NCBI GenBank assembly: GCA_018399555.1
Contig: JAGYOL010000007.1
Span: 1-39,117, forward strand
Direction of reading: 5' to 3'
Source of the DNA: Kiritimatiellia bacterium
GTDB taxonomy: Bacteria > Verrucomicrobiota > Kiritimatiellia > RFP12 > UBA1067
DNA length: 39,117 nt
Part shown: piece by piece, positions 2,810-37,557 of the stretch
Position numbering within the stretch: position 1 is the stretch's first letter
How the letters are laid out: the number at the start of each line of letters is the position of its first letter
Made by a program: the position numbers and the translations under genes
Notes under the pieces: model-generated
Seen by the model: the letters and a program-made list of their open reading frames with translations, nothing else
Told to the model about the DNA's origin: nothing
The model's database searches: none

Positions 2810-2817
2810 AGCTGTCG

Positions 2818-11925: not shown

Positions 11926-12018
11926 TCCCAACCTCCCGGCTTTGTGACAAGCCGTACCTGTTGTAACACTATCCTCAACAATTGCAGCAACCGCAACTGT
12001 CTGCGATGCTGTCCAGAC

Positions 12019-12024
12019 ATTTTC
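12019..12024 (-). promoter_or_regulatory. Candidate -10 element for the 1396-residue repeat protein
   Basis: On the minus strand the sequence reads TGCGAAAAT, the same extended -10 as in the promoters at 2804 and 29329. It would give a leader of about 87 bases before the ATG at 11925. No good -35 is found 16-18 bases upstream, so this call is weak. Confidence 0.25.
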
Positions 12025-12062
12025 GCAAAGGTTCAAATCACAGCGGTCATATCAAACCTTCC

Positions 12063-12181: not shown

Positions 12182-14905
12182 TCAGCGAATGATGATTATG
12201 GCTCCTTCAGGCAGGGGCATCAGCATAACATCGTTGCCATCGCCGCCGTTGTAGGTGATGCGCCAGTTGTTGGCGGGGGTGATGATTTTGGTGCCTTCGG
12301 GCAGGTTGCTGAAGGTGCCGTTGATGCTGGCAGTGCTCTGGTTGTCGATGATTGTAATGCCGGTATCGTTATCGGGCACGGTGCTGTCGTCGATTTGAAG
12401 AGTGGCGTCTGAGAGAGAGAGTGTGCCGCCCGAGGTGACGGTGGCCTTGAAAAACTCCCCGGCCTCGATATTGGTAACGGTGACTTTGAGTGTGGCGCCG
12501 CTGTTGAATGTGAGATTGTCGGTGATGATTGCTCCGGTACCTCCCAAGGTTGCGCCGGAGTTGACGGTCACAAAGCCGCTGCCGGTTGCTGAGTCGCTGG
12601 TATTGCCGACCAGCAGGGTGCCCTCTGCGACCGTAGTGCCGCCGCTGTAAACGCTGGCTGCGCCGAGTTTCATTGTGCCGCTGCCGGTTTTGATCAATCC
12701 GGCGACATCTCTGCTTTGTGAGGCATCGGCGAAAGTGACGGATGTTGTCAGATCAGGATCGCTGTTGCCGGTGACATTCGCCACGTTGAAGGTGCGGTTT
12801 CCGGGGGCATTGTGCATAAGGTGGATGCTGTCGCCCGGTCCGCCGCCAGCGACTATGGTTGAAGGCGCACTGCCGGTTACCGTGATGTCACCGCGCAAGG
12901 TGAAAGACTGCCAGTTGTCGCTGTTGGCTCCACGTCCGCTCTGCAGCGTGCCGCCCTCCATGGCAATCGCTCCTAAAAGGATGAAAAAGCCGCCGGCTGT
13001 GATGCCTTCGTCATAATTCATCAGCGTGCCGGCCAGGAATATATCGGCAATCCCGCCCAGGCAGTAGCTATTGCGCAAGGCGAGAGTAGCACCGGGGGCG
13101 ATGTTGGCAGCAGTGACGTTGCGCATGCCCTGTGTGCTGACATTGCCGATATCGGCATCCCCCAGCTGCAGAGTGCCGCTCTTGACTGTCAGAGTGCCCG
13201 CGAAGGTATTGGCGTCATGTCCGGCTGAAGCGATAACAACTCTGCCGGCACCGGATTTTGCGATGGTACCTGCGGTTGTTCCGGTGAAGGCGTTGGTGAG
13301 CGTTACGATGCCGGCTTCGAGTGCGAATTCGAGGGTTCCGTCGCTGACAGCGGCGGGTCCGGTAAATCCGGTAAAATCGTTAAGTTGCAGCAGACCGTCG
13401 CCATCCTTGGTCAGGGTGGTTGCACCGCTGATCTTATCCACTTCCAGCAGTGTGAAGTTGCCGCCGTGATTGACAGTGATGGTCGCAGACTGCAACATTT
13501 CGACCTCGTTGATTATCTGATATGATGAGTTTGTTATCGCACCGAACGAAAGCTCGGCATTGTCAGTGGCGGCATTCGCCATGTGACTGATTTCGAAGCG
13601 GGTGGCGTTTATAATCCGGCGCACATAGGTTTCCGGCGGAAGATCGCTATGAGTGACCGGCTGACCGATGCGCAGACCATGATTCGTCAGATCATACCAG
13701 ATGTTGTTGTTTTTCAGAGTCACGGTCTGATTGGTTGCTGCGGCGTTTTCGCGTCCGGTCATGACAAATCCGCCGCCGTTGAGGACGAGCTTAGATGACG
13801 GGCTGTAGGCATTGGTTAGAGCACTGCTGCCGGCATAACCGGCGATGCAGTTGAAATCGGCGATCACGCGTCCGACCTCGACTGTGGTGCAACCACTCCA
13901 GGAGTTGACAGCGTAAGCCGAGCCGTCCGGAGCGTTGCCGTAAGGGGCACCGCCGGTGAAAAGCAGATCACCATCACCGATTTTCAGCAGAGTGCCGGCC
14001 TCGCCGGGTTTATCGACAAGCTGGGCTGAAGGAGTGACATATATGATGCCGTCAGGACCTCTGGCGTTGAAGGTGTGGCTGCCGCTTTCGGAGAGAGCTA
14101 CCGTCAGCGGATGATGCACAGCTCTCTGCATATCTTTGTCGCCGCTGCCATCGAAGGTCAGATATGCGTTGCCGTTCTGCAGCAGGACGTTACTGTTTTC
14201 GATGCGGTTCTGAATTGTTCCGTCGTTAAAGGTCAGTTCTCCGTATTGAAGCCAGCGTGGAACATTTACGGTGTTGCCGTTGCCGTTGCCCACGCCGATA
14301 CGTTCATGAGCCAGGGTGCCGCCGTCGAGCAGGTAATATGCGGTGTTCGGGGTTGCCGGATAACCTGTTGCCTCGAAGAAAGTGAGGCCATAGCCATCGT
14401 TGGCACTGCTGATTATGCCGTCGGTATGGGTGTAGAGATTGTTGGCGGAAGCTACCAGCATGAGCTGTACATCAATGGCTATATCGTAGTCGGTCGCGAG
14501 GTAACCTTTCATTTCTAAGAGCCGGGTCTGCAGGGATGAGGCTGCCAGGCGCGAAGCGGCGGTAGCGGGATTTGTATTCTCAACCCGTACTTTCGTATCA
14601 CCGCTGCCCGAATCGGTAACGCCTCCCGTGACTGTGAGACCGGCACCGTCCTGAACCTTGAGTGAGCATGTCCCGGTGGAGTTGTTGAGTGCCACGCTGT
14701 TTGCGGAAGCATCCGTGCCGCTGACCGAGATTGTACTGCCTACATTGAGATAGACATCATCTGCGGCGGTCGGTATAGCACCTTCACTCCAGGTGGCGAT
14801 ATTGTTCCACTGAACATCGTTGCCGATGTTCCAGTTGCGATCTGCCGCATTGACGACACTGGCGGTCACACAGATGAGCAGTGCTGTTCTGATTGTCTGT
14901 TGCAT
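12182..14905 (-). CDS. Secreted beta-strand-repeat protein (907 aa)
   Basis: Starts with a clear signal peptide (MQQTIRTALLICVTASVVNA, cleavage before ADRNW) and a GGAGA ribosome binding site a few bases upstream. The mature N-terminus has the W-rich DRNWN...WNNIATWSEG pattern common at the head of beta-strand-repeat proteins. Canonical repeats follow, for example LIKTGSGTMKLGAASVYSG with TTVAEGTLLVGN, and TLTKDGDGLLQL, which should form a beta-helix. There is no C-terminal translocator barrel. The protein ends in EGAIIIIR, the shared tail. It is related in style but not colinear with its two neighbours and lacks their N-terminal jellyroll. Probably exported and surface-attached or released; role unknown, plausibly adhesion or matrix structure. 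Confidence 0.85.
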   Translation of the reverse strand: MQQTIRTALLICVTASVVNAADRNWNIGNDVQWNNIATWSEGAIPTAADDVYLNVGSTISVSGTDASANSVALNNSTGTCSLKVQDGAGLTVTGGVTDSGSGDTKVRVENTNPATAASRLAASSLQTRLLEMKGYLATDYDIAIDVQLMLVASANNLYTHTDGIISSANDGYGLTFFEATGYPATPNTAYYLLDGGTLAHERIGVGNGNGNTVNVPRWLQYGELTFNDGTIQNRIENSNVLLQNGNAYLTFDGSGDKDMQRAVHHPLTVALSESGSHTFNARGPDGIIYVTPSAQLVDKPGEAGTLLKIGDGDLLFTGGAPYGNAPDGSAYAVNSWSGCTTVEVGRVIADFNCIAGYAGSSALTNAYSPSSKLVLNGGGFVMTGRENAAATNQTVTLKNNNIWYDLTNHGLRIGQPVTHSDLPPETYVRRIINATRFEISHMANAATDNAELSFGAITNSSYQIINEVEMLQSATITVNHGGNFTLLEVDKISGATTLTKDGDGLLQLNDFTGFTGPAAVSDGTLEFALEAGIVTLTNAFTGTTAGTIAKSGAGRVVIASAGHDANTFAGTLTVKSGTLQLGDADIGNVSTQGMRNVTAANIAPGATLALRNSYCLGGIADIFLAGTLMNYDEGITAGGFFILLGAIAMEGGTLQSGRGANSDNWQSFTLRGDITVTGSAPSTIVAGGGPGDSIHLMHNAPGNRTFNVANVTGNSDPDLTTSVTFADASQSRDVAGLIKTGSGTMKLGAASVYSGGTTVAEGTLLVGNTSDSATGSGFVTVNSGATLGGTGAIITDNLTFNSGATLKVTVTNIEAGEFFKATVTSGGTLSLSDATLQIDDSTVPDNDTGITIIDNQSTASINGTFSNLPEGTKIITPANNWRITYNGGDGNDVMLMPLPEGAIIIIR

Positions 14906-15138
14906 AACTTCTCCTGTCTTTTGTTATCTAAAATTTATAGAATCATTAACTCCCAAAGTAGCACATAACCAAACTGATTAACCAGCAAAATTTCATAAAA
15001 TCGGCTGTAGTTTATTCTGCGCTTTCACCGTGTATCGATTCGCAGTTGTAAATCTTGAAATCAATCTTGTGTTTGCCCTAAAAAAGTGGCATCATGCAAG
15101 TACGATTATGTTATACGTATAGAAAAAGGAGGTTGGTC

Positions 15139-17631
15139 ATGCAGGAGTTACAAAGGGTGATATGGGAAACAGCTTGTGTGTGCGGGCTGATAATCTGTTG
15201 CGCATCCGGTGCGGCGGCGGTGGAGATAATCAACTCCGGATTTGAAGCGCCTGATGCTCAGTCGAATAGTTGGATAAAAATTTCAGAGTTGGAGGATAAT
15301 ACAGATGGAGTTGGCGGCTGGACCTTCAGCGGTGTAAACTGCGGTGTGGCCTACAATAATTCCACCTGGTGCATGACTGCACCTGAGGGTGTGCAGGTTG
15401 CCTACCTGAAATATGAAAACACGATTTCAACCACATTTGCAACCACTCGTCTTGGTACCTACAAACTGACCTTTATGGCGGCTGATCGTCAGGCTAAATG
15501 GCCGGCGGGTCATCTGGGCGTTCTGATTGACGGCGTGCAGGTTGCCTACTGGACATCTGCGGAGATCACCAACGACGATCAGTTCCGGCTTTACACAGTT
15601 GACCTCGGCATATTGTCGATTGACACCCACACACTAACGTTTCAAGGCTGGAGTCCGGGCGAGGATTCAGCAACATTGATCGATGATGTCGCGATTACAC
15701 TCGAAAATCCGTTCAATTTCTGGAGTCCCGATCCGCTTTCAAGTAACTGGAATGATACGGTTTGGGCCACTGTTTCCGGAGGTACTCCTGATCAGAGTTG
15801 GAGTGCCGGTGATCTCGCGGTTTTTGATCAGCCGCAGAGCTACACTGTGACCGTGGATACGGCAGTGAGCGCGGGAATTGTATATGTTGATGCGGGTGAT
15901 GTAACCTTTGTGGGAACTGGCGGAGTAGGTACGGATGAGCTGCGCGTCGCCGCGGGTGCGACACTCAGTGGTGAGGGCGAATGCTATCTGAAAAGCGGCG
16001 TGACTCCGTTGATACTGAACGGGACGCTTGATCTGACAGCTCTGAGTGACAGTACGCGCACTGTGGATCTGATTGCAGGTTCAGGCGAGCTGATACTGTC
16101 AACCAATCTGAGTGTCAACGGAACCGCTACATTTAGCGGGGCGGTCAGCGGTGGCGGGAATCTGACAAAAATCGGAGAGGGTAAATTGCAGATCGACAAC
16201 TCACTCACAGGTGATATTGCAGTTAACTCGGGTTATCTCACGTTGCAGAACACAGCCTCCGGTACTATATCGGTTGCATCTGATGCAGGTTTGTCTTTTA
16301 CAGAGCTTTCCGATCTGCTGGGTGAGCTAGCTGACTCAGATAACGATTTTACCGGTAATGCAATGATCGGGTTACACAATGCCGACGCACTCACCGATCC
16401 CGCCCTCGCCGGTGTTGATTATGGCACTCTGCGCTTTCTGAAAACAGGTGCCGGAGTTTTGAAAATTGCATCATCCTCAGTTCTTTCGGGTATCACCGGC
16501 GGGGTGGTGGTGGCTGAAGGTGAACTGGAGTACGGCTGCACGGATGCGGTAGCACCCGATGTGCCGATCGAAGTCAAGCCGGATGCCCGGCTCTATATGA
16601 ACAATAGTGTTGAAGTTTTTGATGTTTCGCATCCTCTGATTCTCGCGGGCAACATTGATTATACCGGCACCGGAGACGGTTCTATGAAGGTGAGAATTGT
16701 TACACGCACTGCCAATTTCAATGCACCCGTCACAGTGGCCGGCGACACTAAGATCAAGATTTATTCATCAAGTTCAACTGTTAATTTCAACGCGCCGTTC
16801 AATGGAGCTGGCGATCTGGTTATATCGAGTGGCGGAGCCGGTGAGCTGCATGCGCATCAGATGACCTTCAACGCATCATCCACCTTCGAGGGGAATGTCA
16901 CGCTGATGAATGATCTTGGTGCCAGCAGTTATTTCTACTGGGGGGTTGATGATGCGTTGCCGGCAGGTGCTGTCCTGCATGTAGGAAGCACGCAATGGAA
17001 TTCATTCACATATACAACCGAGATCGATCTGAAGGGGTATAATCAGACAATTGCCGGTCTGGCTGACGGAGTTACGATCCACAACGACACTGTGCGTGTG
17101 TTTACCAACAGTATGGCCAATGGCTCAACCCTGACAATGGAAGTCGCCGCCGAAGATCAGCCAGCCTATACCGGTGTCATGGGCGGCGGGATAGAGCTTG
17201 TCAAAAGCGGTGACGGCACACAGATGCTCACGGGCGACGGCAGTGCCCGCAGCGGACGGATTGCGGTGCAGGCCGGCAGTATGCTGCTCGACGAAAGCTA
17301 CCTGCTTCAGGCTGAGACCGTTGAGGTGCTGCATGGGGCGACTCTGCGGGTGGAGGATGCCGGGAGTGTCGAGCCGCTTGATTCGGTCACGATTCTTTAT
17401 GCGGGTCTGAACAAATCGACGCAGGGTGAAACAGCTGTACTCGATATTCCCGTCGGTGTGAATGTGACGGTGCGTCAGTTTGCTGTTGACGGCGTGTTCA
17501 AACACGCCGGTACCTGGGGAGCTTCCGGTAGTGGTGCCGATTATATCAACGATGATCTCTTCAGTGGCAGCGGTACGCTCACAGTGCTCGAAACCGGACC
17601 GCTCGATGGCACACGTATTCTGATCAAGTAG
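15139..17631 (+). CDS. Secreted beta-strand-repeat protein with N-terminal jellyroll (830 aa)
   Basis: The ATG at 15139 is preferred: AAGGAGG (15126-15132) lies 6 bases upstream and a signal peptide follows (residues 1-27, ending ASGAAA). The in-frame ATG at 15094 has no such site. Residues 28-190 form the same jellyroll-type domain as in the 1396-residue protein (INSGFEAP, GGWTFSG, APEGVQVAYL, LIDDVAI), and the SSNWN segment falls at the same residue number (about 201) in both. Repeats such as LTKIGEGKLQIDNSLTG follow, then a single copy of the module that is tripled in the paralogue. The C-terminus (STQGE, DGVFKHAGTWGASGSGAD, FSGSGTLTVLETGP) matches the paralogue closely and ends in DGTRILIK. 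The gene diverges from the 907-residue gene across 233 bases. Confidence 0.87.
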   Translation: MQELQRVIWETACVCGLIICCASGAAAVEIINSGFEAPDAQSNSWIKISELEDNTDGVGGWTFSGVNCGVAYNNSTWCMTAPEGVQVAYLKYENTISTTFATTRLGTYKLTFMAADRQAKWPAGHLGVLIDGVQVAYWTSAEITNDDQFRLYTVDLGILSIDTHTLTFQGWSPGEDSATLIDDVAITLENPFNFWSPDPLSSNWNDTVWATVSGGTPDQSWSAGDLAVFDQPQSYTVTVDTAVSAGIVYVDAGDVTFVGTGGVGTDELRVAAGATLSGEGECYLKSGVTPLILNGTLDLTALSDSTRTVDLIAGSGELILSTNLSVNGTATFSGAVSGGGNLTKIGEGKLQIDNSLTGDIAVNSGYLTLQNTASGTISVASDAGLSFTELSDLLGELADSDNDFTGNAMIGLHNADALTDPALAGVDYGTLRFLKTGAGVLKIASSSVLSGITGGVVVAEGELEYGCTDAVAPDVPIEVKPDARLYMNNSVEVFDVSHPLILAGNIDYTGTGDGSMKVRIVTRTANFNAPVTVAGDTKIKIYSSSSTVNFNAPFNGAGDLVISSGGAGELHAHQMTFNASSTFEGNVTLMNDLGASSYFYWGVDDALPAGAVLHVGSTQWNSFTYTTEIDLKGYNQTIAGLADGVTIHNDTVRVFTNSMANGSTLTMEVAAEDQPAYTGVMGGGIELVKSGDGTQMLTGDGSARSGRIAVQAGSMLLDESYLLQAETVEVLHGATLRVEDAGSVEPLDSVTILYAGLNKSTQGETAVLDIPVGVNVTVRQFAVDGVFKHAGTWGASGSGADYINDDLFSGSGTLTVLETGPLDGTRILIK

Positions 17632-17692: not shown

Positions 17693-19390
17693 TCAATCCG
17701 ATCTCTGAGACGGGAAGACTGTTTCGAGTTGGTGCTGGCAGCGCAGGAATGTTGCTACCACCAGCGGATCGAACTGTGTTCCACTGCAACGCTCAATCTC
17801 AGCCCGCGCCTCTTCATAGCTGCGAGGGGACGAATAGAGTCTGCCCACACGGATGGCATCGTAGCTGTCGGCAATCGCGTTGATGCGTGCTCCGAGGCAT
17901 ATCTGTTCGCCTGGCAGCTTGCGCGGATAGCCTGTGCCGTCGAATCGTTCCTGGTGCGAGAGCACGATTTCCGCAATCTCCCGAAATTCAGGATTTGATT
18001 TCAGGATGTCATATCCGGTTTGCGGGTGTTTTTTGACAATCTCCCACTCTTCAGCGCTCAGCTCTCCCGGTTTGAGCAGAATGGAGTCGGGTATTATGAT
18101 TTTACCGATGTCATGCAGCAGCGCACCTTGTTCACACATTTCGATCTGAGCGTCGGAAAGAGCCATCGTGCGTGCCAGAATGCCGACCATTTTAGATACC
18201 CGTCTGCTGTGTTCGCCGGTCGCTTTTTCGCGGGCGTCAAGCATCTCCACCAGGGTGTTGAAAACATAGTTGAATTTCTGAGTTTGCCGGTTTAAAGCCG
18301 ATGGATGGATTTCGCCGTCTTCCGAATCAAGGCTGTCGTCCTTGTGCCAGAGCGTTATGGTGTTGCGTCCATTGCGCTTTGATTGATACAGCGCGCGGTC
18401 GGCTTTTTTAATCAGATTGTGCAGAGGTCTGGTGCGGATCGGCTTTTCACAGGCTGCGCCGATCGAAAGTGTGACCGGCATACGCGTTTGTCCCGTCGAG
18501 AAATTAGTGTTGCGGATATCAATTAATATCCTGTCGGCGGTTTTGGCAACCGCGTCGCAGTCGTTGACCGGCATAGCAATCACAACCTCGTCGCCACCAT
18601 ATCTGCAGATCAGATCAGAGACGCGCAGCATCGATTTGAGAATGGCTGCAAATTTGCGCAGCACGTAATCGCCGACGGCGTGTCCATAGTTGTCGTTGAT
18701 GATTTTGAAATGATCTATATCGATGATAATTATGCCGATCGACTTATCTTCACGCTCTGCCACCGCTTTAAGCTTACGCAGCTCACGCTGAAAGCCGCGT
18801 CGGTTGAGCAGTCCGGTGAGTGAATCCTCCTGTGACAGATACTGCAGTTTTGCTTTGCTTTTTTCCAGTTCGCAGGTGGTCTGCTTGAGTTTGTTGCAGG
18901 TTTCCAGCAGATTCTGCTCTTTTTCCTTGAGAATCGCAATCGCCGCACATAATTCACGTTCGAGTTTTTTACGGTGGCTTATATCATAAGATATCTTGAG
19001 GTAGTGGCTGATTTCACCTTTTTCGTTGAGGATGGGCGTTACAGAGGTCTGCTCCCAGAAACGTCCGCCATCTTTCCGGCATCCTTCGCTTTCGCCGCTC
19101 CAGCTTTCACCGAGCAGGATATCCTGCCAGACAGAGACAATTGTGTTGTGACAGCACTCAGCGCACGTCAGCACGGAGACATCTTTTCCTTTCAACTCTG
19201 CCATTTCATAGCCGGTCAGATCGGTGAACTTCCGGTTGACATATTCGATCCGCCCGTCGGCGTTCAGCAGCATGACCGGCATGGGGCCGTCGATTATCGC
19301 ACTGACGATAAAGCCTGCCGAGGCCGCATCCATTTTCAAAAACCCCGGTATTTTATCTTTTAAACCTGAAATGGTTTTATTTTGTTTCAT
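17693..19390 (-). CDS. PAS-GGDEF-HD-GYP cyclic-di-GMP turnover protein
   Basis: 565 residues without signal peptide or membrane span, so cytoplasmic. A PAS domain (about 28-140) carries an odd Cys cluster, TCAECC (75-80), plus C104; a coiled coil links it to a GGDEF domain (186-348) and an HD-GYP phosphodiesterase domain (about 370-560). The signature is RYGGDEVVIAM, so GGDEV replaces GGDEF. An inhibitory RxxD site (RVSD, 256-259) lies exactly five residues upstream, as in product-inhibited diguanylate cyclases. The HD-GYP part has HDIGK (426-430) and HQERFDGTGYP (479-489), as in active enzymes. It may therefore make and degrade c-di-GMP, with PAS deciding the balance. It starts 51 bases after the deacetylase and is most likely the last gene of the polysaccharide operon, whose synthase carries a PilZ c-di-GMP receptor. 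Confidence 0.92.
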   Translation of the reverse strand: MKQNKTISGLKDKIPGFLKMDAASAGFIVSAIIDGPMPVMLLNADGRIEYVNRKFTDLTGYEMAELKGKDVSVLTCAECCHNTIVSVWQDILLGESWSGESEGCRKDGGRFWEQTSVTPILNEKGEISHYLKISYDISHRKKLERELCAAIAILKEKEQNLLETCNKLKQTTCELEKSKAKLQYLSQEDSLTGLLNRRGFQRELRKLKAVAEREDKSIGIIIIDIDHFKIINDNYGHAVGDYVLRKFAAILKSMLRVSDLICRYGGDEVVIAMPVNDCDAVAKTADRILIDIRNTNFSTGQTRMPVTLSIGAACEKPIRTRPLHNLIKKADRALYQSKRNGRNTITLWHKDDSLDSEDGEIHPSALNRQTQKFNYVFNTLVEMLDAREKATGEHSRRVSKMVGILARTMALSDAQIEMCEQGALLHDIGKIIIPDSILLKPGELSAEEWEIVKKHPQTGYDILKSNPEFREIAEIVLSHQERFDGTGYPRKLPGEQICLGARINAIADSYDAIRVGRLYSSPRSYEEARAEIERCSGTQFDPLVVATFLRCQHQLETVFPSQRSD

Positions 19391-19441: not shown

Positions 19442-21130
19442 CTAATCCTGATCGAGATACAACTCACCTTTGACACGATAAAAACGGGGGGTATCAGTAT
19501 TATTAAGCGGCAGAGTCACTGCGGGATATATCAGGTTGTCGGACACAACCTGCCAGCCGGTTGCGTCATTCAGATTGGTCGAAGTTTCAATACTGTAAGC
19601 ATAAGCGTTATCATCCCAGCTTAAATGCAGCAGTTCTGAATTCATGTCCGATTTTATTACTACCTTGATATGTTGCGGACCGACGCCTAGCAGTTTCAGT
19701 GAAACATCGTTGAATGAAACGGTTCCCCCTGTTCTGCTGATGCGGAAATCAATTTCATGCCAACCTCCGGTTGGTATTGTCCGGTTGTAATGACGGGCAG
19801 CCGCCGAAAGATGGTTATCGGTTTGTGACCAGGTGGCATCATACAAGCTCAGCAGGTTTCCGCCTGCAATGGTGAAATCAACAGTCCAGTCAGAAACCTG
19901 GTGCGGGGTGTTGTTGGAAACCGTCATCCGACACCAGGCAAACTCGGTGTTTTGTGAAACAACGTTTGCCGTGATTGCTTCACCGGGCAGCCAAGCTGAT
20001 CCGAGATATGCGGTTTGATAATCAGGTGCAAAAGGCGTGTCAACACCGCAGGTATAAAAAACGTGTTTGCCCGGAAAGTAACATTCTACGATTTCATTCT
20101 CGGGGAATGGTGTGCGCACCGGGGTTTTGAATGACTGATGTGAAGCAGCTTCTGCCGCCTCTGCCGGATTGAGCATATAATCCACCAGATCATTACAGGT
20201 GATAAACCAGGTGTCGGGATGTTGCAGTGCCCAGGTAATGAATTCGTTGAGTGCACCGATACGCCAAGCTTTGTGCTGCGGATTTGAAAGCCATTGAGTA
20301 TCCCAGACCGCATGAAGAAAAATGCCGTAGGGGGAGCGGTTTCCGTTATAACGGCTCAGAAAATTTTCTTTCCAAAGGGAAACTACCTGGTTTGAGTTCA
20401 ACGATGAAGGCGGATCGGTCAATGCCAGCGCGACAGAATTGGTGAACTGCACCCAGACCGGTATTTCAAACAGTCCGGGATAGTTTGTGAGCGGTACGTT
20501 TGGCGGAGCGGCAATCTGCTGCAGTCCGTTATCGAGCGTGTAGGGCCAGATAAGATTATCCGGTGCCGTGCTGTACATTCCGAGAGCTTCACGCATCGAG
20601 GCGTCATAGCGAAAACCTCTTTCGTGCAGCACGCGGAATGTATTGTCGTTCGGATCGACACGCGGTGCCCGGAACCCGTTGATATCTTCGGCGGGTATAC
20701 CGCTAAGATTGACCAGTATTCTTTTTTCACCCGCGATCTCCTGTCGCCAACGCTCGATTGAACAGGTATGATCGGTGCTGTGCGAGATTGTGTGCAGTGC
20801 TATTTCATGGCCCGCGTCATACAGTCGGCGGATAGAGTAATAATCGTAGCCGGCATTGAGTGCGACAAAAAAAGTGGCTTTGATCGTGTCGCCGTTCGGA
20901 TTGCAGTGATTGGTGAGCACCTGCTGTACCAGATCGTAGGAGTTCAATGTAACAGCATCGTCAAAGGTCAGCAACACAATCTGCGGTGTGTTACTTGGGG
21001 CCAGACCGCCGGGTGGAGCGGTGGAAACCGGAACGCTGGATGCCCAAAGCACAGTTTCGGCGCAGCAGACTGCGGCCAAAACTGCCAGCCGCAAACAGAT
21101 AGTTTGAGCAGCTCTGTTTAATTTTAACAT
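19442..21130 (-). CDS. Secreted chitin-deacetylase-like NodB protein with CBM2-like domain
   Basis: The ATG ending at 21130 has GGAGAAG about 6 bases upstream and is preferred over a TTG at 21151; 562 residues with an N-terminal signal peptide. The NodB (CE4) domain spans about 48-320 and has intact key residues: TFDDA (D57, D58), the metal-binding HTISH (H113, H117), FRAPR (R154) and FLHAVW (H273). The details resemble arthropod chitin deacetylases more than bacterial PgaB: NPNGDTIKATFFV, LYDAGHEIALHTISH, NGFRAP, WPYTLD, FEIPVW and NFLSRYNGNRSPYG all have counterparts there. A CBM2-like segment follows (about 370-465: SDWTVDFTIAGGN, DATWS, IPTGGWHEIDF), then a module ending FYRVK (about 488-554). 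It probably removes acetyl groups from GlcNAc polymers outside the inner membrane. Fourth gene of the operon. Confidence 0.85.
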   Translation of the reverse strand: MLKLNRAAQTICLRLAVLAAVCCAETVLWASSVPVSTAPPGGLAPSNTPQIVLLTFDDAVTLNSYDLVQQVLTNHCNPNGDTIKATFFVALNAGYDYYSIRRLYDAGHEIALHTISHSTDHTCSIERWRQEIAGEKRILVNLSGIPAEDINGFRAPRVDPNDNTFRVLHERGFRYDASMREALGMYSTAPDNLIWPYTLDNGLQQIAAPPNVPLTNYPGLFEIPVWVQFTNSVALALTDPPSSLNSNQVVSLWKENFLSRYNGNRSPYGIFLHAVWDTQWLSNPQHKAWRIGALNEFITWALQHPDTWFITCNDLVDYMLNPAEAAEAASHQSFKTPVRTPFPENEIVECYFPGKHVFYTCGVDTPFAPDYQTAYLGSAWLPGEAITANVVSQNTEFAWCRMTVSNNTPHQVSDWTVDFTIAGGNLLSLYDATWSQTDNHLSAAARHYNRTIPTGGWHEIDFRISRTGGTVSFNDVSLKLLGVGPQHIKVVIKSDMNSELLHLSWDDNAYAYSIETSTNLNDATGWQVVSDNLIYPAVTLPLNNTDTPRFYRVKGELYLDQD

Positions 21131-21184: not shown

Positions 21185-24100
21185 TTAAAACCTGCCGGTC
21201 ACGCCGATCATACCCTGCAGCCGTTCATAACTGGGACTTTGAGCCCAGCGGAGTTCACCGAGCAGCTCGAAATTACGGGTTAAAGTCAATGTTCCGCGTC
21301 CGCGTGCGCTCCACACGAAATCCCAGCTGGTATCACGCTCCTTTGCATAACCGGCTTCGGCACTTACAAAACCTCTGAGACGCTGCCATTCGCCGCGCAG
21401 GGTTGCATGTAGCATGTGCTGCTGCAACTCTTCGGGGGCCCAGTATTCCGGAGGATCGCGATCGCTGTCGGCCACGCGGAAACGCCAGCCTACGCCGAGA
21501 TAGGGCCATTCATTCACACGATACAGCAGACGTCCATCCAGCAGGGTTGTATCGTTGTCGTCGTTGCGTACAATCTGCATCATGTCGGCGTACAGATCGA
21601 AAATGTCGATCAGACGCGAGTATGTTGAAAGGCGATAGGTATCCGCATGGATATCACGCCGCAGTGCTTCGACGGTTTCGATTTCATCGCGTGCGAAAGA
21701 GGGTATGATGTAGCCGCTGAGCAGTGGATTCGGCAGGCGCAGCGCAGCGGAACCTCCGATCAAATCATCGACATCATCCATATCCAGCAGCCACAACGAT
21801 CCTGTGAACCAGGTCTGAGGCGCCAGATAAGCCAGAGTGCGCAATCCATAGCGGGTGCCGTATTCACTGCCGATATCATCGGTGCTCCAGCGGTTGCGAT
21901 CCGCCAGCATTCCGAGACGGATACGTTCGTTGACAAACATGTCGGCGTTACCACCATATTTGAAGTAATCACGATCTTCATTATCCTGCCATCCTGTGAG
22001 ATAAAGGGTGATCTGTGATCGGCGTTGCTCACGTACCCGTTCTAATGCAGCGGGAATCATAGTGTTTTCCGGGTCCAGTTGCTGTGCGGTCAGCAGTTTT
22101 GCCCGTGCGGTTGGCAGGTCGCCCTGCATATAGGCATTCATGCCCCAGTTGAAGTTGACCTCAGCCGGATCAGCGCCATGTTTTTCAGCTTGTTGGAAAG
22201 CGGCATGGGCATCCTCGTGCTGTCCGTTCCAATAAAGCACCCGTGCACGCTCCATCCAGTTAAGAGCCAGGGGATTATGGTTTGTCAGATACTCGGCAAG
22301 CTGATCCGTGCTCCACTGCGGCGGCACGCTACGGGCCGGTATACGCAGAGGATCGTAGTGCTCTGATTTGATCAGAAAACCGCAACTGTCAAAATACACT
22401 GCATGTGTAAAACTATGTGCGACACTGCCGTGCAGCAGGTCGAAGCTGTTCGTGTTCATATCAAGTGAAAGCTGACCGTAATCGCCACCGGGGTAAATCA
22501 GCACACGTTCGTCCCGGTTCTGCAGCATTTTGGATGCGCGTTTTAACTCTGCATCAATCCGGTTGCGGTACTCACTCTCTGTTTCGCTGCTCATCCCGGT
22601 ATGCAAAGGATGGGTCAGGGCGTTGCCCAGGATCGACTCTTTATAGTCCACCCGCTGACGTCGGTTGCCGGGTATGCCGCCGCAGGCTGGTTGCCAGCGT
22701 TTGCTTGAAAGGATAGCACGGGCGTCGGCACTCAGCGGTCTGCCTTCGAGTGTCAGATCAGGTATGGCTGTATTGCCGGCATACAGCACAGCGGCGTGGT
22801 GCTCGCGCAAAACGGGGTCGATGGCTTCTATCACACGGGTAGAGGGATCGATCAGAACCATCATTACACGCAGTTCATCCCCTCCGGATGCGTCATTCTG
22901 AGTGAAGCGGTTGACAAAGGTGTAACCTTGTCCGGCGAGGTGCTGTATGTGCTGAGTGATCTGTTTCACGGAGTTACGTCCGGCATACGGTGTTCCATCA
23001 GGTGAGTTATAAACCAGGATCGGCATGACACCCTGCTTCAGAGTATCATTTTCTTTACGCAGAATTTTGAGAGCCTGGCGGTATTTTTGTTGCTCGGCCA
23101 GCGAGTTGGCGTAGTGGCGCCATACTTCGGCGTTATGCGGTTGAATCAATGTTCTGCGGTACGCGAGTTCAACAGCCTGCTCGACAGCCGCTGATTGTGT
23201 GACCGCGATGCGCAGTGCCTTCAAGGATGGAACGAAGTATGGATTACGCGCGAGCAGCTCGCTGTGGAACTGAACGACCTCATTGGTGGCAGCCATGTTC
23301 TCCAGCATCCGTCCGGCCAGCAGAGTCATCGGGACATGTCCCGGATCCTGAATCAGAAACTTACGAGCTGCAGCGAGAGTTGATTGAGCGTCACAGCCCA
23401 TTCGTTCCCGGCTTTCGGCAAACACTCTGAGCAGGCTTTGCGATTCTTTCAGCTTGAGACCCTGATCGGCCCATTCGGCAGCCCGGCGATACTCTCCGCA
23501 AGCTGAGGATGTTTCAGCAAGTGCTTCAAACAGCCGGTAATCCTGGATGATTTCAGTTGCTTCCCGCAGAACGTCAATCGCCTGGTCGGGTCTGTCAAGT
23601 TTAACCAGAGTGCTTGCGGTACTGATGGCATAATAGGCCGATTCGGGATTTTCGCGTTGCAGTACTCTCCACTCTTTCAGTGCCAGGCGGTGATCACCCT
23701 GGGCGGTCAAAAGTTCAGCTAGGTAGGAGCGCAGAGTGGTTTCACCCGCCGCGACACGCTCGGCGAACCACTGTGTCTGCAGCTGTGCATCAGCGACTCT
23801 GTTTTGATTCAGGAGCGATATGAAGAGAACCTTGCGCAGGGCAGGTTGATCAGGATTGAGATCAATGCTCTCCTGCATCAGATCAGCGGCTACGGCGTTA
23901 TCACCGTTCCGGTCGGCGCGGATGCCCTGGATGCCCTTGATGACCGATGGATCGGAGGCGCGTTTTTCATTGCAGTCCATCCATTTCAGCGGACTTTTTT
24001 CTTCAACCTTCTCGGCCAGCAGCACCGCCCATATCCAGCAACTGCGGTCGGGGTCGCGTTCGAGCAGTTCACGATAGATGCGCAATGCCTGGGTATGATT

Positions 24101-25477
24101 TTCGTCGAGACGCAGTTTCGTTGCTGCGACCTCCATGATCTCAGCGATATGTCGGGTGTAGGGCTCAACGGAATCCAGTTTCGCTTCAAGCTGCCCCACC
24201 AGTTCCGGAGTATCCGTTTCGCTGGCATTCAGCCGGAGTGTTTTCAATGCCAGCTCGGCATTTTCAGTCGAGCATTTACCCGGCGCAGAGAGCAGCGGTG
24301 AGAGATATCTGCGCAGTTCACCGAATTTTCCGTTTCGAGCGCGGACGTATGCCAGGTTTACGCCGACAGGCGGTGTCCGGTTGCCGTTTTGCCAGATGTA
24401 ATCAAGTATAGGCAGAGCAGCTTTGACCCTTTTGTTGCGAACCAGCTCGATCGCCAGTTCGGCCGGGGAGTTCTGCGAATCAACTTTACGCATGAATGTC
24501 ACAGCTTGTTCACCTTGATTCTCTTCTCCTAGTCGTGCGACAACCTGAAAGATCACCTTTTCGCGTTCATCCACGCCGTCGTGTACGGCCTGCTCCAAGT
24601 GTTTCACGGCCGCTGTATGCTGCGAATCCTCCCACAGCAGCCAGCCCAGATCGCGTCGTACGGCGTGTTCATCCGGATGCTGCTTCAAAACCTTGCGGTA
24701 GGCCGCCATTGCTTGTGCACCGTTACCGCCTTTCTGATAGAGCAGGCCCAGAGCACGCCAGGACGCGGCATCCGCCGGCTGGTCCGCCACGATTCGACGC
24801 AGTGCTTCAATGGCATCTTTTTCCCGGCCCAGCCGCGTCAATGCGTCAGCTAATCCGCGCCACGAGGCTGTATCGGAGGCATCAATTGCGACTGCGCGTC
24901 GCAAAGAGACGACCGCGCTGTCAAAATTTCGCATTGATGATTGCAGTGCTCCGAGCTCGCGCCAGCCTGTGCGGTTTTCCGGTTCCAGCTGCACAATTTT
25001 CCTGTAGGCCTCTTCCGCCTCGACATACTTTTGTTCCTCCACCAGCCAGGTGGCCAGATCGCGCCAAGCCGAAGTTGCTTCCGGTTTGAGGTTGAGATAG
25101 CTCCGCAGTGCATCAACTGCCTGTTCGTGTTGGCCGCAGTGCCGGAGAGCAAGGGCAAGCCCACGCCAGGCGGTCTCATCCTTCGCGTTCATTTCGATCG
25201 TCCGTCTGAAGGCTTTGGCCGACTCCTCCGCTTTGCCGCCGCGGTAGAGGGTTACGCCCAGCTGACGCCAGGCGGGGGGATGCGCCGGATCCAGTTCAAC
25301 CGCTTTTTCAGCGTGCTGCAGGGCCTGTCCGATTTTGTCGTCGGCCAGCGCGCTCTGTGAATCTCTGAGCAGCTGAGCCACGCTGACCGCCTCCTGGCCG
25401 TTCGCAATCCCGGTGAACGATCCGATTGTGAACTTCAGCAGCAGCAGAGTGCATATTACCGTTTTATATATTTTCAT
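21185..25477 (-). CDS. TPR / PgaB-like / TPR / outer-membrane barrel fusion, putative polysaccharide exporter
   Basis: The ATG ending at 25477 is chosen: AAAGGAG lies 7 bases upstream, it falls 13 bases after the previous stop, and a signal peptide follows (residues 1-27). A longer frame to 25639 would overlap the upstream gene and lacks support. Of 1430 residues, 45-300 are regular 34-residue TPRs with a recurring WRxL, and further helical repeats run to about 810. Residues 815-1065 resemble the PgaB deacetylase fold (VMPILVYNS at the start, YRNRIDAELKRASKML, IYPGGDYGQ), but the catalytic TFDDG is replaced by VLIDPS. Further TPRs lie at 1070-1145, and 1150-1430 is beta-rich with a C-terminal Phe, as in outer-membrane barrels. 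TPR plus barrel is the plan of PgaA, the PNAG exporter. Likely the scaffold and outer-membrane exit of the polysaccharide. Confidence 0.8.
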   Translation of the reverse strand: MKIYKTVICTLLLLKFTIGSFTGIANGQEAVSVAQLLRDSQSALADDKIGQALQHAEKAVELDPAHPPAWRQLGVTLYRGGKAEESAKAFRRTIEMNAKDETAWRGLALALRHCGQHEQAVDALRSYLNLKPEATSAWRDLATWLVEEQKYVEAEEAYRKIVQLEPENRTGWRELGALQSSMRNFDSAVVSLRRAVAIDASDTASWRGLADALTRLGREKDAIEALRRIVADQPADAASWRALGLLYQKGGNGAQAMAAYRKVLKQHPDEHAVRRDLGWLLWEDSQHTAAVKHLEQAVHDGVDEREKVIFQVVARLGEENQGEQAVTFMRKVDSQNSPAELAIELVRNKRVKAALPILDYIWQNGNRTPPVGVNLAYVRARNGKFGELRRYLSPLLSAPGKCSTENAELALKTLRLNASETDTPELVGQLEAKLDSVEPYTRHIAEIMEVAATKLRLDENHTQALRIYRELLERDPDRSCWIWAVLLAEKVEEKSPLKWMDCNEKRASDPSVIKGIQGIRADRNGDNAVAADLMQESIDLNPDQPALRKVLFISLLNQNRVADAQLQTQWFAERVAAGETTLRSYLAELLTAQGDHRLALKEWRVLQRENPESAYYAISTASTLVKLDRPDQAIDVLREATEIIQDYRLFEALAETSSACGEYRRAAEWADQGLKLKESQSLLRVFAESRERMGCDAQSTLAAARKFLIQDPGHVPMTLLAGRMLENMAATNEVVQFHSELLARNPYFVPSLKALRIAVTQSAAVEQAVELAYRRTLIQPHNAEVWRHYANSLAEQQKYRQALKILRKENDTLKQGVMPILVYNSPDGTPYAGRNSVKQITQHIQHLAGQGYTFVNRFTQNDASGGDELRVMMVLIDPSTRVIEAIDPVLREHHAAVLYAGNTAIPDLTLEGRPLSADARAILSSKRWQPACGGIPGNRRQRVDYKESILGNALTHPLHTGMSSETESEYRNRIDAELKRASKMLQNRDERVLIYPGGDYGQLSLDMNTNSFDLLHGSVAHSFTHAVYFDSCGFLIKSEHYDPLRIPARSVPPQWSTDQLAEYLTNHNPLALNWMERARVLYWNGQHEDAHAAFQQAEKHGADPAEVNFNWGMNAYMQGDLPTARAKLLTAQQLDPENTMIPAALERVREQRRSQITLYLTGWQDNEDRDYFKYGGNADMFVNERIRLGMLADRNRWSTDDIGSEYGTRYGLRTLAYLAPQTWFTGSLWLLDMDDVDDLIGGSAALRLPNPLLSGYIIPSFARDEIETVEALRRDIHADTYRLSTYSRLIDIFDLYADMMQIVRNDDNDTTLLDGRLLYRVNEWPYLGVGWRFRVADSDRDPPEYWAPEELQQHMLHATLRGEWQRLRGFVSAEAGYAKERDTSWDFVWSARGRGTLTLTRNFELLGELRWAQSPSYERLQGMIGVTGRF

Positions 25478-25490: not shown

Positions 25491-27452
25491 TCATTTAGAC
25501 GAAAACGAATCAATCCGTTGGATAGACCTCGGAGCTGATGAGCCTGAAATTCCGACAGTTTCAATCTGAGCCAGCCGGTAGGCGGGCACCGTGCGCAGCA
25601 GAGTGTCGAGCACAAATTCCGTTTCCTTGGCGTCACCATTGATAATAATCACTTCATCACGATATTGATTAGCGGTCAAAGCACCCCACTCTATTGCCTG
25701 GGCAGGATTCAGCAGGTGAAAAACACGGTAGCCGCGGGTGCGTAGCTCATCTGCGATTTCCGGTAATGCTCCTTCGAGCAAGACAGCAGGAAGCAGCATT
25801 TTCAGATCGCGTTGACGGAGCATCTCATCAATTTCGGCAATCCACTGCACTCCATCCTGGCTGCTTACATCGCTTCCGCCGCTTAGCAGCGGATAGGTAT
25901 GTATGCCTCTGACCGAGGCGTACAGCAGGGCTTGTTCATCGGCTCTGGAGAGTTCCGGTTTTTCGGCGGCTTTGAACCACTCCGGCACTATCGCCTGCAA
26001 CTCCTCCGGCCCGGCGGCTTTGATCTGATCCTGATTATCGGTAATCAACCAGCGTTCTGTCAGGGGACGGGCACTGAAATCACCCGCTTCCGCCACGCCT
26101 TGCTGAGCACCGATGCCTACTCGACCGCGCTGTGTGGCGGAAGAAAGCGGCAGGTTCGCAGCTATCTGATTTCCGTCCAGCCACAGCCAGGCACGGTTGT
26201 TACGTATGCGCAAACGCAGTTGATACCCGCCGGATTGTTGATCTGTTGGTGCGGCACGCTCACGAAAGAGGGTGATCACACGATTGTCTGAGCACTCCTG
26301 TACAGCTACTTCGCCATCCCTCAGAGTTACACGCAGCCAGGAGCGCGGCGACGAGGCGCGTGCGTAGAGTGATGCAATACTTTTTTCAGTGCCCTGCATG
26401 CTCGCGGTCACCTCGCAGTCGCGCCAGTTTTCAGTGCCTCGCAACCAGGCGGACGCATCGCTGTTGAGATGCAACTTGTTCCGGCGTATTTCGGCGTCGC
26501 CCTCAAATGCCCACTCCGTGACAGAGCCGATTGACTTCACGGCAGTAGTGCGTGGTCGGTTTGAGTTCAATTCCTTCAGCAGCCGTTCGGGAGTCCAGTT
26601 GCCGGGAACACGCAGTCTGGTTAGTGTCCAGGGGTCGCTGCCGGGACCGTTGAAAGCATTGGAACTTCCGATGAAAGCCAGATCAAAGTGACGTACTACG
26701 GCTTCACGATTTACCGCTTCGGCGAGTGCGTCCGCATGCGCACCCTGTCCCGCATCGGCAAATGGATAGAGATAGAGTGCAACCGGGGCGGCGGATGCCT
26801 CCCTGAGCAGGCGGGCTGAGCGTTCGTAGTCAAGCTCAATACGCTCGCGGAATGCCTGTGCGGTTTCAAGTTGTCCATCTGCGTTCAGTATCCGCCGTCG
26901 TGTCAGAAAACGCCGCTCCTCCTCCGGTGCAGTACCCTCCGTCGCAGTGACCGCCCGGTGTCCCATGCTTCCGACCCGCCACTGCGGCAGTTCGGTTATT
27001 CTGGCGATATCCTTTTTGCGCAGGTAAAAACTGCCCCACTTGCTCATTACATCGGTCGGTACTGTCAGAACAGCGGTGAACCCGGTACGCTGGAGAATCG
27101 GAGTCGCTCGGATGAAGGCCTCTTTGCGCCCTCCTTCAAATATAATCAGCAACGCCTTCTCCGGCAGAGGGGAACGTTCATCCAGACAGGCCCGCAGATC
27201 TTCCGGATACACCGTCCGGTAGCCGGCCTGGCGCAGTGCAGTCAACTGGACTTCGAGTTGTTTTGCAGAGGGATAGACAGCATTGCTCTTGCGTGTTATA
27301 CCGGGATAGGAGATCACAGTGATTCCATTCCAGTTGCGCCAGTCAGCTGGATTGTAAGCCGGCTGAGGTGTTGGCCGCAGAATAATAAACATTACAAATG
27401 CGGCTAGGGCTGCCACGATCAGCCATTGAAAAGCGATCAGTAATTTTCTCAT
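25491..27452 (-). CDS. Membrane-anchored PgaB-like pseudo-deacetylase with concanavalin-like domain
   Basis: 653 residues with one N-terminal membrane span (about 6-25), so probably anchored in the inner membrane facing the periplasm. Residues 43-300 follow the PgaB deacetylase domain: ITVISYPGI, LRQAGYRTVYPEDL, a long FLTRRRILNADG...FRERIELDYERSARLL section, and LYLYPFADAGQ in place of the YPYG loop. The metal-binding TFDDG has become IFEGG (104-108) and the HTxxxH motif is degenerate (MGHRAVTA), so catalysis is unlikely. Residues 312-465 look like a concanavalin-type jellyroll (WLRVTLRDGEVAV, LWLDGNQI, GRVGIGAQ), suggesting glycan binding. The last ~150 residues are unrecognised alpha/beta. 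AAGGAGG overlaps the stop of the synthase gene, so translation is probably coupled. A structural or polymer-guiding role is inferred. Confidence 0.75.
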   Translation of the reverse strand: MRKLLIAFQWLIVAALAAFVMFIILRPTPQPAYNPADWRNWNGITVISYPGITRKSNAVYPSAKQLEVQLTALRQAGYRTVYPEDLRACLDERSPLPEKALLIIFEGGRKEAFIRATPILQRTGFTAVLTVPTDVMSKWGSFYLRKKDIARITELPQWRVGSMGHRAVTATEGTAPEEERRFLTRRRILNADGQLETAQAFRERIELDYERSARLLREASAAPVALYLYPFADAGQGAHADALAEAVNREAVVRHFDLAFIGSSNAFNGPGSDPWTLTRLRVPGNWTPERLLKELNSNRPRTTAVKSIGSVTEWAFEGDAEIRRNKLHLNSDASAWLRGTENWRDCEVTASMQGTEKSIASLYARASSPRSWLRVTLRDGEVAVQECSDNRVITLFRERAAPTDQQSGGYQLRLRIRNNRAWLWLDGNQIAANLPLSSATQRGRVGIGAQQGVAEAGDFSARPLTERWLITDNQDQIKAAGPEELQAIVPEWFKAAEKPELSRADEQALLYASVRGIHTYPLLSGGSDVSSQDGVQWIAEIDEMLRQRDLKMLLPAVLLEGALPEIADELRTRGYRVFHLLNPAQAIEWGALTANQYRDEVIIINGDAKETEFVLDTLLRTVPAYRLAQIETVGISGSSAPRSIQRIDSFSSK

Positions 27453-27463: not shown

Positions 27464-29101
27464 TTATTTACGGGTTACCCATGCATTACGCCAGCAGGTC
27501 AGAACAGCCCAGGGTGTCTGCCACACAAGTATGAACATGTAATAAAAGCAGAATACCGTTCCGTAAAACCAGAGCCGTGAGCGCCGGTAAAGCAGATAGG
27601 TGCTGCTCATCAGGGCGCTCATCAGGGTTATGCCGATGATATACATCAACGGAGAGGTGCGCTGCACCAGAGGTATGTATATCAGGGCGCGCACAACAAT
27701 AGCCGGTCCCATCAGCGGCAGAATGAATCCGAGATAGAAGGAGAGCGCCATCAGCGGCTCTTTGCGCCACATGAAGGTCGAGGCGATCAAACTTTCTCTG
27801 AACCATGAGCGCTTCCAGCGCATCTGTTGTTTGAGAAACTCGCCATGCTTTTCAGGCACCATGGTGGTGACGCGAGCTTTGGATTCATAAACCACCTTGT
27901 AGTTGCGCCGCAACAGACTGTTGGTCAGAGAGCGGTCATCACCGAAGGTGGCTGCCGCACCCAGAAATCTCTGATTCAGCCACTCCGGCAATATTGTCTG
28001 CAGCACCTCAGCGCGGTAGGCCGAGATCGGCCCGGAGAGACAGGTTACACTATTGAAAACACTCTCAGCGGCTTTCATTACCCGGAAGGCGATGAAATAG
28101 CGAACCGCCTGCATGCGGGTCAGTCTGTTCGACCAGATGTTTTCAACATCACAGTGCCCGGTCACAGCCGCCACCGCCTGATCAGAGAATCGGTTCACCA
28201 GATTGCGCAACGCCGAAGGCTCCACAAAACTGTCAGAATCAATAAAAACAACGATCTCTCCGGTGGCCAGCGCGACACCGGTAGCCAGCGCATGACGCTT
28301 GCCTGCGTTTTTATCCAGCCCCAGAACCACAAGCTCAGGGTAGATCTTCTGTGCAGCCTTCATTTTCATCAGGGTGTCGTCGGTGCTACAGTCGTCAACG
28401 GCGATAACCTGCAGACGCTCACGCGGATAGTCCGACTCCATCAACTGGCGCAGTGTGCGTTCGATCTGTTCCTCTTCATTGCGCACCGGCACCACTACCG
28501 ATAGGGCTGGCAGTTCGGACAACGGTTTGGCGTCGCTGTAGAACGCCGCGAAAAGAAAGCGGCTGAGCAGATAACTGCCGACCAGCAGGCTGTAAAGAAA
28601 GACCGGCACATCAAACCAGAAATAGTAGTAGTTTTCATATTTGATCAACAGAACAGCACTTGCGCTGACTATCAGCATGACAGCCGCCAGACAGCGCAGA
28701 TAACTCCAGGAGCTCCTTTTGTAACGATCAGCCAGGTCCTGCTCAAACGCCAGCCCGATCAGCGGCGAATCATCATCACGATGACGTACCTGCGCATTGG
28801 TGGCGACAACCCCCTGGATGAATTCCTCAGGCATTGCACCCTCAGGTATGCGGAACTTCATCTTCAGGCGCTTTTCATCCGGTGGCACATCCGGTGCCTC
28901 GATCAGCAGTCCGCCACTGGAAATGTCGTGCACTGTGGCACTGTACTCACGTGCGTTTTTGCCTTCGCCGACAAATATGCGGATTGGAAAATCGGCCAGA
29001 AAACGCTGCGATCTGCGGCGGTCAGAGTAGTTTTCACGCGACCTCGAACGCAACCTTCTTTCGGGTACCGGTTCAGGGTATTTCTGAGTCTCTCTTTTCA
29101 T
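27464..29101 (-). CDS. PilZ-domain family 2 glycosyltransferase, hyaluronan synthase/NodC type
   Basis: The ATG ending at 29101 is chosen: AAAGGA lies 9 bases upstream, while the earlier ATG ending at 29110 touches that site; 545 residues. The N-terminal PilZ domain (about 25-125) has the c-di-GMP motif: RRSQR (RxxxR) and DISSGG (DxSxxG). Two membrane spans follow (about 135-155, 165-188), then a GT2 domain with VPVRNEEEQI, VDDCSTDDT (D236, D237), DSDS (288-291), FGDDRSLTN (386-394) and QQMRWKRSWFRES (425-437), three more C-terminal spans, and a WVTRK ending. GDDRxLTN and RWxxSxFRE are typical of class I hyaluronan synthases and NodC rather than cellulose synthase or PgaC. It likely makes and extrudes a beta-linked, GlcNAc-containing polymer when c-di-GMP is bound. 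First gene of the operon. Confidence 0.88.
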   Translation of the reverse strand: MKRETQKYPEPVPERRLRSRSRENYSDRRRSQRFLADFPIRIFVGEGKNAREYSATVHDISSGGLLIEAPDVPPDEKRLKMKFRIPEGAMPEEFIQGVVATNAQVRHRDDDSPLIGLAFEQDLADRYKRSSWSYLRCLAAVMLIVSASAVLLIKYENYYYFWFDVPVFLYSLLVGSYLLSRFLFAAFYSDAKPLSELPALSVVVPVRNEEEQIERTLRQLMESDYPRERLQVIAVDDCSTDDTLMKMKAAQKIYPELVVLGLDKNAGKRHALATGVALATGEIVVFIDSDSFVEPSALRNLVNRFSDQAVAAVTGHCDVENIWSNRLTRMQAVRYFIAFRVMKAAESVFNSVTCLSGPISAYRAEVLQTILPEWLNQRFLGAAATFGDDRSLTNSLLRRNYKVVYESKARVTTMVPEKHGEFLKQQMRWKRSWFRESLIASTFMWRKEPLMALSFYLGFILPLMGPAIVVRALIYIPLVQRTSPLMYIIGITLMSALMSSTYLLYRRSRLWFYGTVFCFYYMFILVWQTPWAVLTCWRNAWVTRK

Positions 29102-29167
29102 GTTTGTCATTCCTTTCAGAAAAACCGCGTTGCTTAATCTAATTACATTGTTTTCTCTTTTGCGCTC

Positions 29168-36147: not shown

Positions 36148-37557
36148 ATGCAGTTTAAATCTGTGATTCTTATAGGTGGCTTGTTTCTGTGTGCTGTGTT
36201 GTGCGGTTCAGCTCTGAGTGATGAGCGACCGAATATACTGTTATTTATTACCGATGATGAGAGCTGGATGGAGCGCAGTGCCTATGGCTGGTCCACATTG
36301 CCGACGCCGCACTTTGATCGTGTGGCGCGTGACGGGGTTCTTTTCACGCAGGCCTACACGTCAGCTCCCTCTTGTGCGCCCTCCCGCGCTGCGACACTGA
36401 CCGGACGCAATTTCTGGGAGTTGGATCAGGGGGCCTTTATTCAGGCCTGGGTGCCGGATCAATTCCCTGTCTTTCCCGCTTTGCTTGCGCAGGCCGGTTA
36501 TCATATCGGTCATACCGGCAAGGGATGGGGACCCGGCGTTTCACCGGAGGGGGCGCACAAATCACCCTCCGGACCGAGTTACAACAAAATTACAATTCCC
36601 AAAGAGCGGCGTGTAAAACACATGTCGTCGATTGATTATGCCGCTAACTTCAAAGCATTTCTGGAAGTACGCGGGGAGGATCAGCCCTTTTATTTCTGGG
36701 TCGGCACACAGGAACCGCATAGTCCCTACGATAAAGAGAACTACAAGCGTCTCGAGCGGGAGTTCGCTTTCAAACTGGATGATATCTCGATGCCGGCATT
36801 TATGGAGGATACACCGCAGACCCGCCGCGCACGCGCCAACTTCCTATACGAAATCTGTTACGCCGATGCTCAGCTCGGGCGAATCCTCGAAACTCTGGCT
36901 GAAAGCGGTGAACTGGACAACACCCTGGTCTTTGTAACTTCGGATAACGGTACTGCCATCAGGAATTTCGCCAAGGCTTCGCCGTACGAGTGGAGCTGTC
37001 ATGAACCGCTGGCCGTGATGTGGCCGAAAAGGGTACCCGGAGGACGCACTGTGACCGACTTTGTTTCTTTCCGTGATTTCGCACCGACAATACTCGCCGC
37101 CGCCGGTGTTGATCTGCCTGAGAGTATGTCCGGTTCCACTCTGCTGCCGCTACTCTTTTCCGAGAAGAGCGGACGAATCGAAGCGAATCGGAACTTTATT
37201 GTGCATGGCCTTGAGTGGCATGGCGAATTTGATCCTGCCAGTCGTTCCCACCGTACTTACCGCAACGACCGCTATGCCTACATCGTACGTTATTCCAACA
37301 AGCTGCCTCCTGAAAACGAGATAGCCGCCGATGCCGAGATAAGTTCCGAAGAACTTTATGATATGCGGAAGGACCCCTGGCAGCGTGAAAATTTAATCGG
37401 CAATCCCGAGTATGCGGCAACTCTGAAAGAGCTGAAATCCGGCCTGAAAGAGTATGCCCTGAAAACCGGTGACCCCAGATTCACCGGCAGGATGAAGGTT
37501 TTCCGGGAGACCCGCGCTTTTGTTCAGGAGCGTAAACGCGGCGGTTATAAACGTTAG
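36148..37557 (+). CDS. Secreted type I sulfatase, heparan N-sulfatase-like
   Basis: 469 residues with signal peptide (1-24, MQFKSVILIGGLFLCAVLCGSALS). ERPNILLFITDDESW carries the metal-binding aspartates (36-37), followed by AYGWSTLPTPHFDRVARDGVLFTQAYTSAPSCAPSR with the formylglycine motif CAPSR (C76-R80), then ATLTGRN, GKGWGPG, WVGTQEPHSPY and the second metal site VTSDNGT. Overall length and the SAYG...TPHFD...APSCAPSR layout recall the N-sulfoglucosamine sulfohydrolase (SGSH-like) branch, which removes sulfate from glucosamine residues; the exact substrate remains open. Maturation needs a formylglycine-generating system encoded elsewhere. GAGG lies 6 bases before the ATG. A third sulfatase follows after 62 bases on the same strand, probably in the same transcript. 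Confidence 0.9.
   Translation: MQFKSVILIGGLFLCAVLCGSALSDERPNILLFITDDESWMERSAYGWSTLPTPHFDRVARDGVLFTQAYTSAPSCAPSRAATLTGRNFWELDQGAFIQAWVPDQFPVFPALLAQAGYHIGHTGKGWGPGVSPEGAHKSPSGPSYNKITIPKERRVKHMSSIDYAANFKAFLEVRGEDQPFYFWVGTQEPHSPYDKENYKRLEREFAFKLDDISMPAFMEDTPQTRRARANFLYEICYADAQLGRILETLAESGELDNTLVFVTSDNGTAIRNFAKASPYEWSCHEPLAVMWPKRVPGGRTVTDFVSFRDFAPTILAAAGVDLPESMSGSTLLPLLFSEKSGRIEANRNFIVHGLEWHGEFDPASRSHRTYRNDRYAYIVRYSNKLPPENEIAADAEISSEELYDMRKDPWQRENLIGNPEYAATLKELKSGLKEYALKTGDPRFTGRMKVFRETRAFVQERKRGGYKR

Follow-up and report, generated by a model that had tools for sequence, protein, structure and literature searches.

Genes at the locus

The window analysed here is a 39,117-nucleotide stretch of DNA from a Kiritimatiellia bacterium (assembly GCA_018399555.1, contig JAGYOL010000007.1, positions 1-39,117 of the forward strand). 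It contains an operon of five genes on the same strand, separated by gaps of 11-54 bases, in which a predicted chitin deacetylase (CDA) takes fourth place:

27464..29110, minus strand: PilZ-GT2 synthase, closest named family NodC (from profiles and motifs)
25491..27452, minus strand: PgaB-like protein, NodB domain without catalytic residues (FDDG to FEGG; match to PgaB structure)
21185..25477, minus strand: TPR and outer-membrane export protein, PgaA-like, with a second degenerate PgaB-like domain (from profiles)
19442..21130, minus strand: predicted insect-type CE4 chitin deacetylase (from ORF, Pfam, PDB search, trees and fold model)
17693..19390, minus strand: PAS-GGDEF-HD protein, likely involved in c-di-GMP turnover (from ORF and domain profiles)

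As read from the sequence, an internal ATG at 25477 is the likely start of the TPR/outer-membrane gene. Two sulfatases with SGSH_C domains lie beside the operon (29375-31414 and 36148-37557), and the window also holds large, autotransporter-like ORFs with PATR or DUF642 matches (210-2699, 7735-12036, 12182-14905 and 15094-17631).

The CDA ORF comprises 562 amino acids counted from the ATG at 21130, with an alternative TTG start upstream at 21151. A hydrophobic, signal-like stretch can be read at the N terminus, followed by the CE4 domain (approximately residues 37-330), a CBM2 domain and a C-terminal beta domain. Pfam searches returned Polysacc_deac_1 (PF01522) at 7e-14 and 52.3 bits, against a curated cut-off of 23.1, and CBM_2 (PF00553) at 3.7e-11 for residues 399-472, bearing out the initial annotation of a CBM2-like domain behind CE4. 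CBM2 domains commonly bind cellulose. That annotation had also listed an ordered chain of seven CDA motifs, and all seven were found in the quoted order: NPNGDTIKATFFV (residues 77-89), GHEIALHTISH (107-117), NGFRAP (151-156), WPYTLD (195-200), FEIPVW (221-226), NFLSRYNGNRSPYG (256-269) and FLHAVW (271-276). Its claim of a full CE4 residue set likewise holds, as CE4 motifs 1-5 are all kept (TFDD 55-58, H113, H117, R154, D239 and H273), including the catalytic Asp and the Asp-His-His metal triad (D57, D58, H113 and H117). These residues are invariant, or nearly so, across 16 bacterial relatives. By score and motifs, the protein belongs to the CE4 carbohydrate esterases (PF01522).

Likeness to insect chitin deacetylases

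Resemblance to arthropod CDAs, proposed from motifs read by eye, proved to be far above chance. Insects employ these enzymes in forming their cuticle. When the window CDA was searched against all PDB chains with phmmer, the best matches were Bombyx CDA1 (1.8e-30) and CDA8 (4.9e-29), followed by a fungal CDA at 6.4e-8, fungal enzymes being compared through their PDB entries only. A profile built from nine bacterial relatives gave 175 and 159 bits for the insect chains, and 49 for the best of the remaining PDB chains. With an insect-only profile, the window CDA family reached 109-158 bits and a protein from a Cellvibrionales MAG (L031) 185 bits, while a more distant bacterial group scored 51-99 bits and ordinary NodB proteins at most 27. 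Sequence and profile alike place the window CDA nearer to the insect enzymes than to the rest of CE4, at an identity between the bacterial family and the insect proteins of approximately 30%.

An AlphaFold2 model of the window CDA (pLDDT 83) gave 5z34 and 5zns as top matches in Foldseek, and VIA-align matched it to an insect CDA with a Z score of 38.6 across 339 residues, the next entry reaching 21.3. The crystal structures of the insect enzymes show C-terminal loops and a loop insertion that other CE4 structures lack (PMC6463723). Alignments of the window CDA with the insect enzymes cover both features, and the model, a prediction rather than a solved structure, suggests that the window CDA carries these elements reported as unique to insect CDAs. 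The C..PDC.C motif at the N terminus of BmCDA1 and BmCDA8, taken here as a common rather than a defining feature of insect CDAs, is absent from the window CDA sequence and present at the N terminus of a Kiritimatiellae relative (L022). Of the two insect enzymes, BmCDA1 is inactive without accessory proteins and BmCDA8 is active, on chitinous substrates (PMC6463723).

Phylogeny and origin

Trees rooted on ordinary NodB joined insects (represented by two sequences), L031 and the window CDA family in one group (support 93/92 and 93/96) that falls outside the distant bacterial group; ordinary NodB split off at 100/100. L031 paired with the insect CDAs (96/88 and 93/82). The L031 gene (L031:3541-5207), nearest to the insect enzymes, has its N-terminal part masked with N. 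Approximately unbiased (AU) tests did not formally reject a topology with all bacterial sequences apart from insects (p 0.06), nor one with L031 grouped with the window CDA family (p 0.27). Insect-type CDAs were found in 11 of 345 genomes of the class, patchily and across seven families. Relatives are deeply diverse in bacteria, with outgroups in other bacterial phyla; their spread beyond the phylum comes from one genome-contig scan by peptide patterns, which may miss members. Plasmid sequences yielded distant CDA relatives only.

These data support descent of the window CDA, its bacterial relatives and the insect CDAs from a common ancestor, separately from ordinary NodB. Placement of best matches or tree position among ordinary NodB proteins had been set beforehand as a test of the initial annotation; both fell instead with insect CDAs. 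That the protein is nevertheless an ordinary NodB or peptidoglycan deacetylase, its insect likeness being the common CE4 core alone, is scarcely credible: weak matches to general CE4 models speak for it, and we rejected it on the wide score gap, the 100/100 separation in trees and a 339-residue insect match that includes loops reported missing from other CE4 structures. Shared ancestry or horizontal transfer had both been put forward at the outset, and it is the ancestry that searches and trees uphold. Fairly recent acquisition of the bacterial gene from an animal would suit its patchy distribution and the fact that animal enzymes are its nearest solved relatives, but it is made very improbable by the identity of only about 30% and by the depth of its diversity within bacteria, where outgroups come from other phyla. 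Literature searches found no account of bacterial relatives, or of a transfer origin, of metazoan CDAs.

Synthase and export proteins of the operon

The synthase carries PilZ motifs (RRSQR and DISSGG) and GT2 motifs (GDDRSLTN and QQMRW), with GDDRxLT where E. coli PgaC has TED. It scored 180 bits against the NodC profile (cut-off 550) and 132.6 bits against PgaC (cut-off 422), and in a tree rooted on PgaC it was placed with NodC and hyaluronan synthase (HAS). NodC is thus its probable nearest family, and the score below the NCBIfam equivalog cut-off puts it outside that family; nor does it appear to be the PgaC-type synthase of the PNAG pga system. Because it lies below both curated cut-offs, the linkage and sugar of the polymer are not fixed. 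No PgaD-like ORF was found in the operon.

The PgaB-like protein (25491-27452) matches PgaB structures at 1.2e-8, with FEGG in place of the PgaB FDDG and an altered His motif. A full metal triad was present in none of approximately 34 distinct PgaB-like copies aligned from the class, and the catalytic-motif variants among these homologues (L099-L128 and L129-L139) include FEGG, FDHS, FENT and others. The PgaB-like NodB domains are apparently pseudo-deacetylases throughout the class, and the window operon would accordingly differ from the PNAG pga system in having no intact PgaB.

Co-occurrence of deacetylase and synthase

Homologues of the synthase were found in 73 of the 345 class genomes, including all 11 that bear the CDA (hypergeometric 2e-8 by genome and 3e-5 by genus, shared ancestry being ignored). 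The CDA lies with an exopolysaccharide cluster in three families, represented by the window, by G177, where it is 21 bases from the TPR gene, and by G509, where it is approximately 380 bases from a TPR/PgaB-like gene. Against a role in the operon, 8 of the 11 CDA copies were not seen adjoining the synthase, and 62 of the 73 synthase-bearing genomes are without an insect-type CDA. Among eight genomes outside the class with distant CDA relatives, six yielded nothing matching the synthase at 1e-20, and two (Myxococcales) had weaker matches.

A second, unrelated short deacetylase, secreted and intact (motifs QFDDGW ... GTHTxxH), was found in 4 of 288 genomes of the phylum, all with a close form of the PilZ-GT2 synthase operon:

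L129:1308-2369, unrelated short deacetylase
L132, approximately 2800-3874, unrelated short deacetylase
L149:505-1485, unrelated short deacetylase
L150:619-1635, unrelated short deacetylase

The G101 copy is encoded on the opposite strand, flanked by the TPR and cyclase genes; the homologue in G264 adjoins the TPR gene and a GGDEF ORF. A search of the window's own genome (82% complete) did not recover this type. The presence of the CDA or of this enzyme at the corresponding region suggests a swap of deacetylase partner.

Proposed role of the operon

We consider it probable (roughly 70%) that the CDA is a zinc-dependent chitin N-deacetylase that is secreted, belongs to the insect-CDA branch and supplies the deacetylase activity of an operon for a synthase-dependent exopolysaccharide. 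Most likely, it would remove N-acetyl groups outside the cytoplasm from a chitin-like exopolysaccharide under c-di-GMP control, in place of the dead PgaB domains. Gene order, family placement, CE4 motifs, PgaB residue loss, NodC/HAS motifs and co-occurrence were computed, and from these we infer polymer identity, enzyme activity, the location of deacetylation and c-di-GMP control. In the proposed mechanism, c-di-GMP, its local level set by the PAS-GGDEF-HD protein, would bind the N-terminal PilZ domain and switch on the NodC/HAS-type GT2, which would polymerise UDP-GlcNAc into a beta-1,4 chain while extruding it through the inner membrane. This chain may be bound or guided by two PgaB-like domains without catalysis, and the TPR/outer-membrane protein would export it. 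The CE4 site of the CDA, held on the polymer by a long open cleft and CBM2, would strip part of the acetyl groups, yielding a partly cationic, chitosan-like matrix. The chitin-like beta-1,4-GlcNAc polymer of the initial annotation thereby gains support, at the level of inference, from the NodC/HAS-type synthase and the CDA-synthase co-occurrence. It is possible, though tentative, that animal CDAs descend from this bacterial family and that Kiritimatiellae still build a regulated, chitosan-like matrix by means of the enzyme, the dead PgaB domains serving as guides for the polymer.

Two other readings of the operon bear on this role. The presence of PgaB-like and PgaA-like proteins would fit a diverged pga operon making beta-1,6 PNAG, in which the CDA took the place of PgaB. 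We regard this as unlikely, given a NodC/HAS-like synthase with GDDR rather than TED, the lack of a PgaD-like ORF and the activity of BmCDA8 on chitinous substrates (PMC6463723); production of PNAG by a PgaC-type synthase in particular is disfavoured by profile scores, the rooted tree and the GDDR motif. Use of the CDA on external chitin is conceivable because GH18 genes accompany it: they occur in six of seven CDA-bearing genomes, compared with 5 of 12 further genomes that have the PgaB-like system, and in G177 a GH18 chitinase gene (L016:6831-8357) neighbours the CDA in convergent orientation. CBM2 and secretion would also suit an insoluble external substrate. It is quite unlikely, however, that the enzyme is a nutritional one, deacetylating environmental chitin alongside chitinases, and its operon position incidental. 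No GH18 gene was found in the window's own genome (82% complete), the CDA is co-directional with synthase and exporter genes in one operon, every CDA-bearing genome has the synthase, and in relatives the corresponding region contains a deacetylase of an unrelated type.

On a plasmid of Paenibacillus cellulositrophicus (L144:5102-12732), the gene for a PilZ-GT2 synthase lies near those for two polysaccharide deacetylases and a GH18 protein. The synthase is 42% identical to that of the window and is placed between the two deacetylases and the GH18 gene, an arrangement that would fit a chitin-like polymer. Strains of Pontiella, another member of the class, make exopolymers with N-sulfated hexosamine (PMC7356697). 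N-sulfation needs free amines, and a tie to the CDA is a matter for speculation.

Comparison with known systems

Literature searches found no earlier description of a system combining a PilZ/NodC-type synthase with an insect-type CDA. The operon is a candidate for a bacterial system dedicated to a chitin/chitosan exopolysaccharide, which would have a synthase and an exporter of its own and be controlled through c-di-GMP. The insect CDA architecture in bacteria offers a tractable system for the origin and working of that branch, and the apparent loss of PgaB catalysis across the class, with separate deacetylases nearby, suggests a testable division of labour.

With BmCDA1 (5zns/5znt) and BmCDA8 (5z34) the window CDA has in common the CE4 motifs, the NPNG, WPYT and NRxP motifs and, in the model, the loop insertion, the C-terminal loops and the fold across 339 residues. 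It differs in its approximately 30% identity, in having no N-terminal Cys motif, in being a bacterial operon gene and in carrying CBM2 in place of the chitin-binding/LDLa domains of insect CDA groups 1-4. The PNAG systems (E. coli pgaABCD and hms) resemble the window operon in their TPR/outer-membrane exporter, PgaB-like protein, GT2 and nearby diguanylate cyclase gene, whereas the window operon has a PilZ and NodC/HAS-like synthase, a dead PgaB, no PgaD-like ORF and a separate insect-type CDA. Rhizobial NodC/NodB provides the nearest named synthase family and a similar pairing of synthase with deacetylase; in contrast, the window synthase does not reach the cut-off of the NodC profile, the operon adds an exporter and PilZ, and its deacetylase is not NodB.
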